This document shows, one piece after another, positions 53,285 through 64,000 of a stretch of DNA of 64,000 bases. A program made the translations under genes and the position numbers. Origin of the DNA: Streptomyces sp. cg36 (GTDB lineage: Bacteria > Actinomycetota > Actinomycetes > Streptomycetales > Streptomycetaceae). Position 1 is the first letter of the stretch; each line of letters starts with the position of its first letter. The notes under the pieces are model-generated. The model did no database searches and was not told the origin of the DNA. It worked only from the letters and a program-made list of their open reading frames with translations. The DNA is taken from the NCBI RefSeq assembly GCF_041080675.1, contig NZ_CP163520.1, positions 5,642,001-5,706,000 of the forward strand, given 5' to 3'.

Positions 53285-53321
53285 AGCGTTGAGCGAAAAA
53301 CTTCTTCATATCGACAAAGTC

Positions 53322-53356
53322 GGCACAGGGTGCCGTGGATGTCGGCACGGGGTGCC
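53322..53356. promoter_or_regulatory. Tandem palindromes upstream of the aceE promoter
   Basis: Two perfect 13-bp inverted repeats of the form GGCAC-NGG-GTGCC, at 53322-53334 and 53344-53356, are exactly 22 bp apart (two helical turns) and lie within a 22-bp direct repeat. Placed 38-72 bp upstream of the -35, they look like paired operators for an activator or cooperative regulator. Confidence 0.55.
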
Positions 53357-53539
53357 TTGTTTTCGCAGGTGGGGTGGGGTTCGGATGAGCGGGGGCGCCG
53401 GAGTATGAGCGGGGCGCGCCCCCTTCGTCCCTGTACGGCAAGGGGGGTGCCGGGTTCCCCTTTTCGGCCAGGGGTGGCCCATTCGGGCCGGGTGCTCGTC
53501 TGCGGGGGCTGCGCCCCATCCGGGCCGGGTGCTCGTCTG

Positions 53540-54405
53540 CGGACCGTGCTGGGCTGACCGCGCAGTTCCCCGCGCTCCTTGTTGGGGCGGTTGCTCGGCT
53601 GCGGGCCGGTGGTGGGTTGCTCGCGCCGTTCCTCGCGCCCCTTGTTGGGGCGGTTGCTCATCTGCGGGCCGTGGGGGTTGCTCGCGCCGTTCCCCGCGCC
53701 CCTGGTGGGGCGGGTGTTTGGCCGCGGGCCGGTGGGGGTGCTCGCGCAGTTCCTCGCGCCCCTTGTTGGGGCGGTTGCTCATCTGCGGGCCGTGAGGGTT
53801 GCTCGCGCCGTTCCCCGCGCCCCTGGTGGGGCGGGTGTTTTCTGCGGGGCGTGCGGGCTGAGCGCTCCTTGGGAAAACCGCCTTCACCTGCGGACCGTGC
53901 CCGCTTCCCGCGCAGTTCCCCGCGCCCCTGGAAAACCCGCCCTCGTCTGCCGACCGTGCCCGCGTCTCGCGCCGTTCCCCGCGCCCCTGGGGGCACTGGG
54001 GCGGGCCCTCCTGATGGGCCCGGAGGGCCCTTTCAGGGGCGCGGGGAACTGCGCGACCAGCCCACCACGGCCGGTGGACGAAAGGGTGTTGGGGGCGCGG
54101 GGAACTGCGCGACCAGCCCCCGCCGGGCCGCAGGCGAATGTGACTCTCGTTCAGGGGGTGCAGGGGCGCAGCCCCGCGTTCTCCTGGGGAGCGGCCCCGC
54201 ACGGGCCGCAGACGTCCAACTGCCCCATCCAGGGGCGCGGGGAACTGCGTGAGCAACCCCCACCGGCCCGCGGACGAGCAACCGGCCCACCAGGGGCGCG
54301 GGGAACTGCGTGAGCAACCCCCACCGGCCCGCGGACGAGCAACCGGCCCACCAGGGGCGCGGGGAACCGCGCGAGCAACCCCCACCGGGCCGCAGCCGAA
54401 CAACC
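53540..54405. repeat. Twelve-copy REP-like array of two opposed blocks
   Basis: Gene-free 1.1-kb gap between aceE and the GntR gene. Seven copies of CGCGCAGTTCCCCGCGCCCC (some with CCG for CAG or CTC for CCC) read one way from 53550 to about 53990. Five copies of the complement (AGGGGCGCGGGGAACTGCGC and variants) follow from about 54034 to 54385. The switch is marked by a hairpin, GGGCCCTCC/GGAGGGCCC (54003-54030). Copies are 55-105 bp apart and linked by related words (CGGTTGCTCATCTGCGGGCC). The short frames here are products of the repeat. The 53357-53539 stretch before the array holds no gene I can support. Confidence 0.85.
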
Positions 54406-60398: not shown

Positions 60399-60416
60399 TG
60401 TGAGAGCTCAGTCACA
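60399..60416. promoter_or_regulatory. Inverted repeat TGTGA-N8-TCACA before the deacetylase gene
   Basis: Arms TGTGA (60399-60403) and TCACA (60412-60416) around GAGCTCAG, about 100 bp upstream of the deacetylase start within the 299-bp gap shared with pepA. It resembles a CRP half-site pair but with eight instead of six central bases, so the binding protein is uncertain. Confidence 0.35.
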
Positions 60417-60518
60417 CTCGGCCCGTTCGGGCAAGGGCGCACGGGGCTCCTTTGCATCATCTCCACAGGTCCTCCCATGCGCGCGCGCATCCGGAAGGAC
60501 CCCCATGAGGGGGGAACA

Positions 60519-62549
60519 ATGCACCATTCGTACCGTTTAAGGGCGAGTAGAGCCACGGTGGCGCTGATGGCGGCCGGTCTGCTGGCCACGGCTGTTCCGG
60601 CGGCCGGGGCGGCCACCGCCGCGATACCCCCGCGCATCGACCTCAAGGTGCTCGTCCTCGACGACGGCGGCAGCGCGGTGGACGCGCTCGTGGCGCAGCT
60701 GAGGAGCATCGGACTGCCGTACCAGACGGTGAAGCTGACGGACGCCGGGCGTCCCACGATCGACGCCGCGTTCCTCAGCGACACGGTGAGCGGGCGGCCC
60801 CGCGCCAAGTTCCAGGGCGTCATCGCGCCCAACGAGATCCCCTTCGGCTCCGCCGACGCCCCCGAGCAGACCGCGCTCGCCGCGTACGAGAAGACCTTCG
60901 GGATCCGCCAGATCGACGCCTACACCTGGGCCCACCCCGAGGTCGGCCTCGACTACACCGACCAGAACGGCGGCTGGGCGGGCGTCCTGGACGGGGCCAG
61001 GACCCAGGTCACCGCGGACGGCAAGGCCGGACCGTTCGGCTACCTCGACGGGCCGGTCCTCTTCGAGGACAACTCCCCTTCGGTGTCCGAGAGTTACGGC
61101 TACGCGGGCCATCCCCGGGACGGCTACACCAGCTATCTCACCGCCCCCACCGGCGGCTCCCTGGTCGGCGCCTACACCCACGACGGGCGCAGCGAACTGG
61201 TCGTCACCTTCGCCTACAACCAGTACCAGGAGCAGTTCCGGGTGCTGGCCCGGGGCATGGTGGAGTGGCTGACCCAGGGCGTGCACCTCGGGCAGAGCCG
61301 CAACTACTTCGCGGTCCACGTCGACGACGTCTTCGCGCCGGACGCCCGCTGGGACACCACGCTCAACTGCACGCCGGGCGACTTCGACTGCGCCGGCGGG
61401 GCCGGGCAGACCAGCGACATCCGGATGACGGCGGCGGACGCCCAGTACGCCGCCCAGTGGGAGCAGGCCAACGGCTTCACCCTCGACCTGCTGTACAACG
61501 CGGGATCCGGCGAGGAGTGGAAGGCGGAGAACGGCGGCACCGACGCCCTCACCACCCAACTGCTGGCCGACAAGGCCAAGTTCCGCTGGGAGAACCACAC
61601 CTACACGCACGAGTTCCTCGGCTGCGTCCAGGACACCGGCACCGTGCCCTGGACCTGCGCGAAGAACGTCGACGGCAGCACCAAGTGGGTCTCCCGGAGC
61701 GACATCGCCGGCCAGATCACCAACAACTACAACTGGGGCGTCCAAAAGGGCCTCCCGGTCGACCGCACCGAGCTGGTCACCGGCGAGCACTCCGGTCTGA
61801 AGACCCTGCCGCAGCAGCCCCAGGACAACCCCAACCTGGCCGGCGGGCTCCAGGACGCCGGGGTCAAGTGGACCGGCAGCGACAACTCGCGCGAGCCCCA
61901 GCAGCGCCCGGTCGGCAACGCCCTCACGGTGCCCCGCTACCCGATGAACGTGTACTACAACGTCGGCAAGGCCGCCGAGATGACCGACGAGTACAACTGG
62001 ATCTACACGTCCAAGGCGGACGGCGGCAGCGGACTCTGCGAGAACAACCCGACGTCCACCTGTCTGCCCGCGCCGCTGGACACCGCCACCGGCTACCAGT
62101 CCTACATCGTCCCCCAGGAGGCCGCGACCGCCCTGCGCCACGTGCTCGGCAACGACCCGAAGCCGCACTACGTGCACCAGTCCAACCTCGCCGAGGAGCG
62201 GATCCTCTACCCGGTCCTCGACAAGGTGCTCGGCGACTACCGCGCGCTGTTCGCGGACAGCGCCCCCGTCGTCAACCTGCGGCAGCGGGACATCGGCACC
62301 GAACTCAGCCGCCAGGCCGCCTGGGCCAAGGCCCTCGCGGACGGCAAGGTCACCGCGTACCGCATCGGCACCGCGGTGACCGTCCAGGGCCCGTCGGGCG
62401 TGGTGGCACCCATCACCGCCCCGGAGGGCACCAAGCAGCAACAAGTCCTCGGTACCACCGTGTTCGGCACGCCGTACGCGGGTCAGCGCTCCGCCTGGTC
62501 CTCACCCGGACTCCTCCAGGCGGCGATCACGCTGAAGCTTCCGGCCTGA
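60519..62549 (+). CDS. Secreted Agd3-like polysaccharide deacetylase (CE18-type), TTA at codon 7
   Basis: Exported protein of 676 aa. A signal peptide (ATVALMAAGLLATAVPAAGA) is followed by an N-terminal alpha/beta domain (DLKVLVLDDGGSAVDALVAQ). The deacetylase domain has the metal/catalytic motif YFAVHVDDVFAPDARWD (Asp 269, Asp 270) and ENHTYTHEFLGC (HxxxH, 360-364). This is the pattern of Agd3, the fungal galactosaminogalactan deacetylase, rather than of classic NodB enzymes. Codon 7 is TTA (60537-60539), so translation should need bldA tRNA. AGGGGGG lies four bases before ATG 60519. The next gene, PelF-like, starts 37 bp later. Likely role: removing N-acetyl groups from an exported GalNAc/GlcNAc polymer. 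Confidence 0.85.
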   Translation: MHHSYRLRASRATVALMAAGLLATAVPAAGAATAAIPPRIDLKVLVLDDGGSAVDALVAQLRSIGLPYQTVKLTDAGRPTIDAAFLSDTVSGRPRAKFQGVIAPNEIPFGSADAPEQTALAAYEKTFGIRQIDAYTWAHPEVGLDYTDQNGGWAGVLDGARTQVTADGKAGPFGYLDGPVLFEDNSPSVSESYGYAGHPRDGYTSYLTAPTGGSLVGAYTHDGRSELVVTFAYNQYQEQFRVLARGMVEWLTQGVHLGQSRNYFAVHVDDVFAPDARWDTTLNCTPGDFDCAGGAGQTSDIRMTAADAQYAAQWEQANGFTLDLLYNAGSGEEWKAENGGTDALTTQLLADKAKFRWENHTYTHEFLGCVQDTGTVPWTCAKNVDGSTKWVSRSDIAGQITNNYNWGVQKGLPVDRTELVTGEHSGLKTLPQQPQDNPNLAGGLQDAGVKWTGSDNSREPQQRPVGNALTVPRYPMNVYYNVGKAAEMTDEYNWIYTSKADGGSGLCENNPTSTCLPAPLDTATGYQSYIVPQEAATALRHVLGNDPKPHYVHQSNLAEERILYPVLDKVLGDYRALFADSAPVVNLRQRDIGTELSRQAAWAKALADGKVTAYRIGTAVTVQGPSGVVAPITAPEGTKQQQVLGTTVFGTPYAGQRSAWSSPGLLQAAITLKLPA

Positions 62550-62586
62550 CCAGCCGACTGACATTCGCTGTCCAGGGGGGACACCA

Positions 62587-64000
62587 ATGCCGAGCAGTGG
62601 CCGTCACGTCACCATGCTCACGGAAGGCACCTATCCGCACATCCACGGAGGCGTCAGCACCTGGTGCGACCAGCTCGTGCGCGGTATGCCGGAGGTCGAC
62701 TTCAACGTCCTGGCCCTCACCGGCAACGGCCGCGAGCCGGTCACCTGGGAGCTGCCGCCGAACGTGTACCGGCACACCGCGTTCCCGCTGTGGGGACCGG
62801 CGCCGACGCGACGGCCACTCCTCGGCAAGGAGCGGCGCCGCTTCATAGACGTCTATGAGCGGTTCCTGCTCTCGATGCTCGACCCCGAGTCCGGCTGCAA
62901 CTTCGCCCAGGGGCTCTACTCCCTGGCGCGGCTGGCTCGGGCCGGGCGGCTCTCCACCGCACTGCGCTCGGAGGCCGCCCTGCGGTCGCTCATGTGGATC
63001 TGGACCATGCCGCACCTCCAGATAGCCACCGCACGGCCCACCGTGCACGACGCCCTGACCGCCACCGACCTGCTCGAACACGCGCTGCGCCCGCTGGCCG
63101 CCCGGCTCCCGGAGGACTGTGTGGCCCACGCGGTCAGCAGCGGCCTCGCCACCCTGCCCGCGCTCGCCGCCCAGCATCTGGACGGCGTTCCCTTTCTCCT
63201 CACCGAACACGGCATCTACCTGCGCGAACGCTATCTCGGCTACCGCACGGGGGAGCAGACCTGGCCGGTGAAATCGGTGATCCTCAGCTTCTACCGCGAG
63301 CTCAACTCGATGGGCTACCGCCAGGCCGATCTGATCACCCCCTGCAACCAGTACAACCGCCGCTGGGAAGAGCGCGGCGGCGCCCCGGCGGACCGCATCA
63401 GGACCGTCTACAACGGAGTCGACCCCAACCTCTTCCCGCACGCCGGCCCCGACCCCGCGATCCCCACCCTCAGCTGGTGCGGCCGGATCGACCCCATCAA
63501 GGACCTGGAGACCCTGATCCGGGCGTACGCCATGGTCCGCGCCGAACTGCCCGAGGTGCGGCTGCGGCTCTTCGGCCCCGTACCGGCGGGCAACGCGGAC
63601 TACCGCACCACGCTGGAGAAGCTCGCCGCCGAACTCGGCGTGACCGACGGCATCAGCTACGAGGGCCGCGTCAGCGACGTCGCGAGCGCCTACGCGGCGG
63701 GGAGCGTGGTGATGCTCTCCAGCATCAGCGAGGGCTTCCCCTTCTCCATCATCGAAGCCATGTCCTGCGGCCGGGCCACGGTCTCCACCGACGTCGGCGG
63801 GGTGCGCGAGGCCGTCGGCGACGCCGGACTCGTGGTCCCGCCGCGCGAGCCCGCGCTGATGGCCGAGGCCACCCTCACCCTGCTGCGGGACGACGCCCGC
63901 CGCGCCGAACTGGGCGCGCGGGCCCGCAGCCGGGTCGTCGACCAGTTCACCCTGCACCGCTCGGTGGACGGCTTCCGCAAGATCTACCTGGAGCTGGCCG
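62587..64000 (+). CDS. PelF-like GT4 glycosyltransferase (partial, right edge)
   Basis: Cytosolic family-4 glycosyltransferase, 471 codons before the window ends. The N-terminus VTMLTEGTYPHIHGGVSTWC is the hallmark of PelF, the UDP-sugar polymerase of Pel exopolysaccharide. Also FLLTEHGIYLRERYLGYR, DLITPCNQYNRRWEERGG, TVYNGVDPN, LSWCGRIDPIKDLETLIRAY and the EX7E nucleotide-binding motif EGFPFSIIEAMSCGRATVST (about 382-390). GGGGGG lies six bases before the ATG. Coupled to the upstream deacetylase. PelF normally works with a membrane transporter (PelG) and a c-di-GMP receptor (PelD), expected downstream but outside the window. Confidence 0.85.
   Translation, partial: MPSSGRHVTMLTEGTYPHIHGGVSTWCDQLVRGMPEVDFNVLALTGNGREPVTWELPPNVYRHTAFPLWGPAPTRRPLLGKERRRFIDVYERFLLSMLDPESGCNFAQGLYSLARLARAGRLSTALRSEAALRSLMWIWTMPHLQIATARPTVHDALTATDLLEHALRPLAARLPEDCVAHAVSSGLATLPALAAQHLDGVPFLLTEHGIYLRERYLGYRTGEQTWPVKSVILSFYRELNSMGYRQADLITPCNQYNRRWEERGGAPADRIRTVYNGVDPNLFPHAGPDPAIPTLSWCGRIDPIKDLETLIRAYAMVRAELPEVRLRLFGPVPAGNADYRTTLEKLAAELGVTDGISYEGRVSDVASAYAAGSVVMLSSISEGFPFSIIEAMSCGRATVSTDVGGVREAVGDAGLVVPPREPALMAEATLTLLRDDARRAELGARARSRVVDQFTLHRSVDGFRKIYLELA

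Follow-up and report, generated by a model that had tools for sequence, protein, structure and literature searches.

A predicted galactosaminogalactan-type exopolysaccharide operon in Streptomyces sp. cg36

Introduction

In fungi, the polymer galactosaminogalactan (GAG) serves virulence and biofilm formation, and its gene cluster is suspected of bacterial origin (PMC4817252, PMC7229062). The text of Bamford et al. 2020 describes bacterial agd3 operons that encode a cytoplasmic glycosyltransferase, a multi-spanning membrane protein and a GH114 enzyme, joined in some Actinobacteria by a Spherulin-4 protein (PMC7229062). Here we analyse a five-gene operon, g1 to g5, that begins at the very end of a 64,000-nucleotide stretch of Streptomyces sp. 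cg36 DNA (the window: bases 5642001-5706000 of contig 1, in a 9.02 Mb genome). We consider it a probable GAG-type exopolysaccharide system.

As a kind, the GAG-type bacterial operon is already known, and the present one is a further example: it has the same gene set and the same proposed GAG-like function as the operons in the text of Bamford et al. 2020, to which a MOP fold, an intracellular Spherulin-4 and gene fusions are additions of the present analysis (PMC7229062). The "hybrid" arrangement that a first-pass annotation of this DNA had put forward is therefore not a novelty. Compared with the fungal cluster uge3-gtb3-sph3-ega3-agd3, as described in PMC4817252, PMC11356417 and PMC7329490, the deacetylase, GH114 and GH135/Spherulin-4 genes are homologous, while PelF and the membrane protein g3 occupy the place of the transmembrane Gtb3; this synthase is split over two genes here and fused in some bacteria. 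The operon lacks an epimerase, which another actinobacterial locus (L062) has. A third relative is the Gram-positive pelDEA(DA)FG operon (PMC7112168). By that description it is alike in PelF, in the deacetylase and in a multi-helix membrane protein beside PelF; our operon differs in having no PelG sequence match, a CE18 enzyme instead of PelA, and GH135 and GH114 in addition.

Results and discussion

Gene content of the operon

The operon consists of the following genes. Coordinates above 64000 extend the window numbering with locus L009, and the start codons of g3, g4 and g5 are our choice.

60519..62549, + strand: g1, secreted Agd3/CE18-type polysaccharide N-deacetylase (predicted), 676 amino acids; alternative start at 60477
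62587..64161, + strand: g2, PelF-type GT4 glycosyltransferase, 524 amino acids; the window ends at 64000, inside the gene
64158-65615: g3, membrane protein with a predicted MOP fold, 485 amino acids; GTG start; outside the window
65612-66346: g4, Spherulin-4/GH135 protein, 244 amino acids; overlap ATGA; outside the window
66343-67242: g5, GH114 lipoprotein (predicted), 299 amino acids; overlap ATGA; outside the window

The g1-g2 gap is 37 base pairs (bp), and g3, g4 and g5 each overlap the preceding gene by 4 nucleotides. Homologues of fungal agd3, ega3 (GH114) and sph3 (GH135) occur together, and the operon holds bacterial counterparts of most fungal GAG genes.

The g1 protein has the three-domain architecture of Agd3: a CBM87-like domain, a carbohydrate esterase domain and a β-rich C-terminal domain. 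The CE18 motifs CM1 (DD), CM2 (HxxxH) and CM4 (His) are found in 24 of 24 homologues, and the CM3 Arg in 23. At E values up to 1, Pfam Agd3_CE matches 23 of these 24 sequences and CBM87 matches 11. Searching the PDB with g1 alone gave no match; the 24-sequence profile retrieved Agd3 (E 2.7e-11). Judged on its sequence, g1 is an Agd3/CE18-type deacetylase, with predicted activity on an α-1,4-linked N-acetylgalactosamine (GalNAc) polymer. This deacetylase was found in 22 of the 61 genomes searched, including 20 of 37 within the same genus; in the window genome, the operon holds the only Agd3 and GH114 matches.

Downstream, g2 scores 176.1 bits against the NCBIfam PelF equivalog (cut-off 100) and combines DUF3492 (PF11997) with a GT4 domain (PF13692). 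Its EX7E motif is present in 22 of 23 sequences of a first locus set, by a crude motif count that includes shortened genes. g4 scores 100.7 bits for Spherulin-4 (cut-off 30.2) and matches fungal Sph3 in the PDB (5c5g, E 5.1e-11); g5 scores 278.6 bits for GH114 and matches Ega3 (6oj1, E 9.4e-56).

The first-pass annotation was right to place a CE18-type deacetylase 37 bp ahead of a PelF-type GT4, and right that an exopolysaccharide operon starts here. Of the profile checks that it proposed, the one for PelF gives a score above the cut-off; for Agd3_CE the single g1 sequence stays at 21.8 bits, below the Pfam cut-off of 27.6, and it is the 24-sequence profile that finds Agd3.

A membrane protein with a predicted MOP fold

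The predicted structure of g3 is a two-bundle MOP fold of 12 transmembrane helices, with both termini inside the cell. In fold, helix number and orientation it is like the MOP superfamily members MATE, WzxE and MurJ, from which it differs by an extra N-terminal helical domain (residues 31-85). In a Foldseek search, two rows had E < 0.001. No PDB chain was matched by the g3 profile up to E 10, and Pfam assigned no credible family to 42 g3 homologues: eight unrelated families were hit by one member each, with a best E of 0.0042.

The first-pass annotation had proposed to look for a PelG-like gene past 64000; what stands there is g3, a membrane protein without detectable sequence similarity to eight PelGs. 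PelG is a MOP-type protein as well. The idea that g3 is a PelG too diverged for Pfam was rejected, since profile-profile comparison with eight PelGs was not significant (probability 0.05% and 0.4% against PelG profiles). A local alignment pairing conserved Glu residues of g3 and PelG had an E of 0.15 and was not used. No match to PF16933 (PelG) occurs in the window genome (G000).

There are 955 g3 homologues in total. Among the 120 listed, the named ones are from Streptomyces and nearly all of these are annotated as hypothetical; a mostly "hypothetical" family thereby gains a predicted fold and a proposed role.

Natural fusions

We searched for fusions with g2 joined to g3 (120 matches listed, many unnamed) and with the g3 part of one fusion, P0153 (30 proteins listed). 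Four proteins carry both a PelF and a g3 part (P0152, P0153, P0156 and P0158; 974-994 amino acids), the latter aligning from g3 residue 8-32 to 483 at 34-36% identity. At the C-terminus of g3, P0246 (7 member sequences) carries a sugar-nucleotide dehydratase, and P0261 (1 member sequence) a Spherulin-4 domain; a fusion seen in a single protein may be an assembly or annotation error. The candidates P0136, P0159, P0264 and P0265 were discarded as partial or apparently frame-shifted.

Because a nucleoside-diphosphate-sugar dehydratase belongs in the cytosol, the g3 C-terminus to which it is fused is expected to be cytosolic. Together with the predicted topology, this would place the Spherulin-4 domain of P0261 in the cytosol too. 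The PelF-MOP fusion may correspond, on the bacterial side, to fungal Gtb3; no fungal-named protein was among the 120 and 30 matches listed for the two queries.

Conservation across Actinomycetota

Outside the window, g1 gave 27 matches, of which 26 loci were retrieved as the first set; 22 of them have PelF downstream on the same strand. For a second set chosen by g3 alone, one peptide pattern was scanned over species genomes, yielding 346 relatives, and the best 80 were kept; some of these loci end at contig ends, and at least 4 repeat first-set contigs that built the profiles. They come from Streptomyces, Amycolatopsis, Lentzea, Kutzneria, Acrocarpospora, Actinoplanes and others, all of which we take to be Actinomycetota. 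Among these best 80, g1 is found in 74, g2 in 76, g4 in 74 and g5 in 60, and all five genes together in 54.

The operons are of two types: g4 directly follows g3 in 33 of 74 loci and lies 1.5-3.1 kb away in 40, with one locus in between. In the sole gapped operon that was read, the interval (L056:9337-12026) encodes a dehydratase-like short-chain dehydrogenase/reductase (SDR), a sugar nucleotidyltransferase and a second SDR, which may point to a distinct or dedicated precursor sugar in operons of that type. A nucleotidyltransferase and an SDR also follow g3 in L064, which has no g4.

Location and residues of Spherulin-4

Export signals were assessed with a hydropathy test of our own, not SignalP, on automatically called start codons. 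A strong hydrophobic N-terminal segment was present in 60/60 GH114 and 67/74 Agd3 proteins, and in 0/77 PelF. For Spherulin-4 there were 77 matches in the 80 loci, 62 of them with a start codon in the tested stretch; such a strong segment was present in 3 of these 62, and a looser limit raised the number to 5. The remaining 15 have their first start codon beyond the tested stretch, in most cases near the barrel, and the start of the operon g4 often lies a few residues ahead of the first barrel strand. g4 itself shows no export signal by this test, unlike fungal Sph3, which is reported to be membrane-bound and to act outside the cell (PMC12054363).

At three loci (L070:4100-5114, L071:11800-12700 and L073:10922-11777), the signal-less Spherulin-4 has a second copy next to it, whose N-terminal segment is hydrophobic. 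The two copies are an apparent inside/outside pair.

All 100 aligned Spherulin-4 sequences, redundant genomes included, keep the equivalents of the catalytic Asp and Glu; at the position of the neighbouring Sph3 Glu167 they have Gln (68), Arg (31) or Gly (1). Residue names follow PMC10485009 and were matched by motif; the Asp is printed as 196 in PMC12054363. We had considered g4 a dead enzyme on account of Glu167 being Gln or Arg, and dropped this idea since the catalytic pair is kept. With these residues present and no export signal, g4 could well be an active enzyme that works inside the cell.

Proposed pathway and its alternatives

In the GAG-type pathway, PelF would polymerise a UDP-N-acetylhexosamine in the cytosol, most likely UDP-GalNAc, and g3, as its physical partner, would carry the chain through the membrane. 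The secreted Agd3-type enzyme would then strip part of the acetyl groups, and the resulting cationic polymer could stick to hyphae and surfaces; deacetylated stretches would be cleaved outside the cell by the GH114 lipoprotein g5. At the cytosolic face of the synthase, g4 could trim chains, prime them or clear those that have stalled. What was computed here is the order and families of the genes, the predicted folds and membrane topology, and the natural fusions; the substrate, the chemistry of the polymer, its transport by g3, what g4 does and the biological role, including a putative part in pellicle formation or hyphal adhesion, are inferred.

Our proposal for g4 is more tentative than that for the operon, and we hold it as somewhat short of an even chance: the GH135 of actinobacterial GAG-type operons would be an intracellular synthase subunit at the cytosolic C-terminus of the MOP exporter, not an extracellular hydrolase. 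It would act on the growing chain before export, or simply hold it. Fungal Sph3 is described as a membrane-bound protein that GAG synthesis requires and that is proposed to cleave the chain outside, as it emerges from Gtb3 (PMC12054363); an intracellular GH135, if true, reframes why GAG synthesis needs Sph3. Two features of the system look new: a hydrolase that seems to stay inside the cell, and a flippase-like exporter that in some proteins forms one chain with the synthase. In the article texts searched we found no report on intracellular GH135, a g3-type fold or PelF-membrane fusions.

Several observations weigh against the GAG-type pathway. In addition to the low single-sequence score of g1, its homologues have Tyr or Phe (23 of 24) in place of Agd3 Met666 in CM4, a residue whose mutation abolished adhesion (PMC7229062). 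Among the first-set g5 sequences, some of them shortened, the GH114 PD (Asp) pattern is found in 15 of 17 and the NEQC pattern at the acid/base Glu in 12 of 17. There is no epimerase, the counterpart of uge3, among the five genes, and the operon types may not all use the same sugar, given the sugar-nucleotide genes of L056 and L064. For g3, the Foldseek TM-scores are modest (0.32-0.52 among MOP rows to rank 34), no sequence link to PelG was found, and the MOP fold serves lipid-linked flippases too.

In an alternative route, PelF would build a lipid-linked oligosaccharide or glycan and g3 would be a Wzx/MurJ-like flippase, with a wall-attached glycan as the end product instead of a free, synthase-dependent polymer. 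We consider it unlikely: PelG shares the MOP-type architecture, none of the five operon genes encodes an initiating phosphoglycosyltransferase, a Wzy-like polymerase or a ligase, and fungal Agd3 and GH114 are described as acting on an α-1,4 polymer of GalNAc and galactosamine (PMC7229062, PMC12054363). The first-pass annotation favoured a canonical Pel operon with PelA replaced by an Agd3-type deacetylase. PelF does exceed its equivalog cut-off, and Pel is described as a partly deacetylated α-1,4 GalNAc polymer too (PMC9135694). GH114-type enzymes moreover accompany true Pel operons, since a gene for an "endo alpha-1,4 polygalactosaminidase" directly adjoins pelG in a Paraburkholderia and a Pseudoalteromonas plasmid (L163:1712-1953, L164:1678-1947), which qualifies the GH114 argument against a Pel operon. 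Yet the genome has no PF16933 match, g3 shows no similarity to eight PelGs in profile comparison, and Spherulin-4/GH135 and GH114 come next instead; the Pel operon is already disfavoured and very improbable. The PelD model (PF16963) found no match in G000, G098 and G070, nor in any of 14 controls, so that its silence is uninformative. As for g4, it could be exported like Sph3 by a route that the signal test misses, and unclog the synthase outside as proposed for Sph3. The second copies of L070, L071 and L073 point that way, as does the Spherulin-4 of L062 that lies next to agd3 and has a signal-like N-terminus. Against this stand the 3 of 62 testable proteins with a strong hydrophobic segment, themselves the second copies, and the position of the P0261 domain behind the predicted cytosolic C-terminus of g3; export of g4 is quite improbable.

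A locus with an epimerase

The actinobacterial locus L062 has the following layout.

L062:122-5820, - strand: GalE-PelF-g3-Spherulin-4-GH114
L062:7901-10939, + strand: a longer form of Agd3, in which fibronectin-like domains recur at the C-terminus (by eye)

The GalE (TIGR01179, 336 bits against a cut-off of 262) overlaps PelF by 4 nucleotides. By family assignment it is the match of fungal uge3 and completes the fungal set at this locus. The Spherulin-4 that adjoins agd3 is additional to the one in the gene row. In the window genome, three GalE genes above cut-off are found elsewhere and could be a source of UDP-GalNAc.

A sister PelF locus in the same genome

The window genome holds one further Spherulin-4 besides g4, at a second locus.

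L161:8430-14335 = C1:2820429-2826334, - strand: PelF-like gene, g3-like protein, SDR, Spherulin-4

Here, the PelF-like gene scores 420 bits with our PelF profile and 89 bits for DUF3492, and the g3-like protein 91 bits (E 1.1e-29). A ThiF-rhodanese (moeZ-like) gene is also carried at this locus, and no Agd3 or GH114. Under S. coelicolor gene numbers, the article texts searched yielded nothing on the sister locus.

Its Spherulin-4 was matched at E < 1e-48 in 24 of 25 same-genus genomes searched and has no obvious N-terminal signal, by eye. The Asp is kept in 11 of 12 copies retrieved, and the acid/base Glu is lost in all 12, replaced by Asn, Ser, Ala, Thr or Cys. This loss suggests a pseudo-enzyme, and with it a non-hydrolytic, structural role of the Spherulin-4 fold in the synthase.

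Genomic setting

The operon is flanked by a divergent leucyl aminopeptidase gene upstream and a convergent CobS gene downstream.

60400..60518, + strand: conserved upstream region, lying between g1 and the divergent aminopeptidase gene, with blocks GTCACACTC and CTTTGCATCATCTCCACA

Both blocks are kept in operons of the window type, in an alignment of 15 upstream regions, and may form a regulatory site common to them.

On either side of the operon region, at window positions 53300-54400 and at L009:13250-13800, there are clusters of a GC-rich repeat resembling CGCGCAGTTCCCCGCGCCCCT, on both strands, as seen by eye and uncounted.

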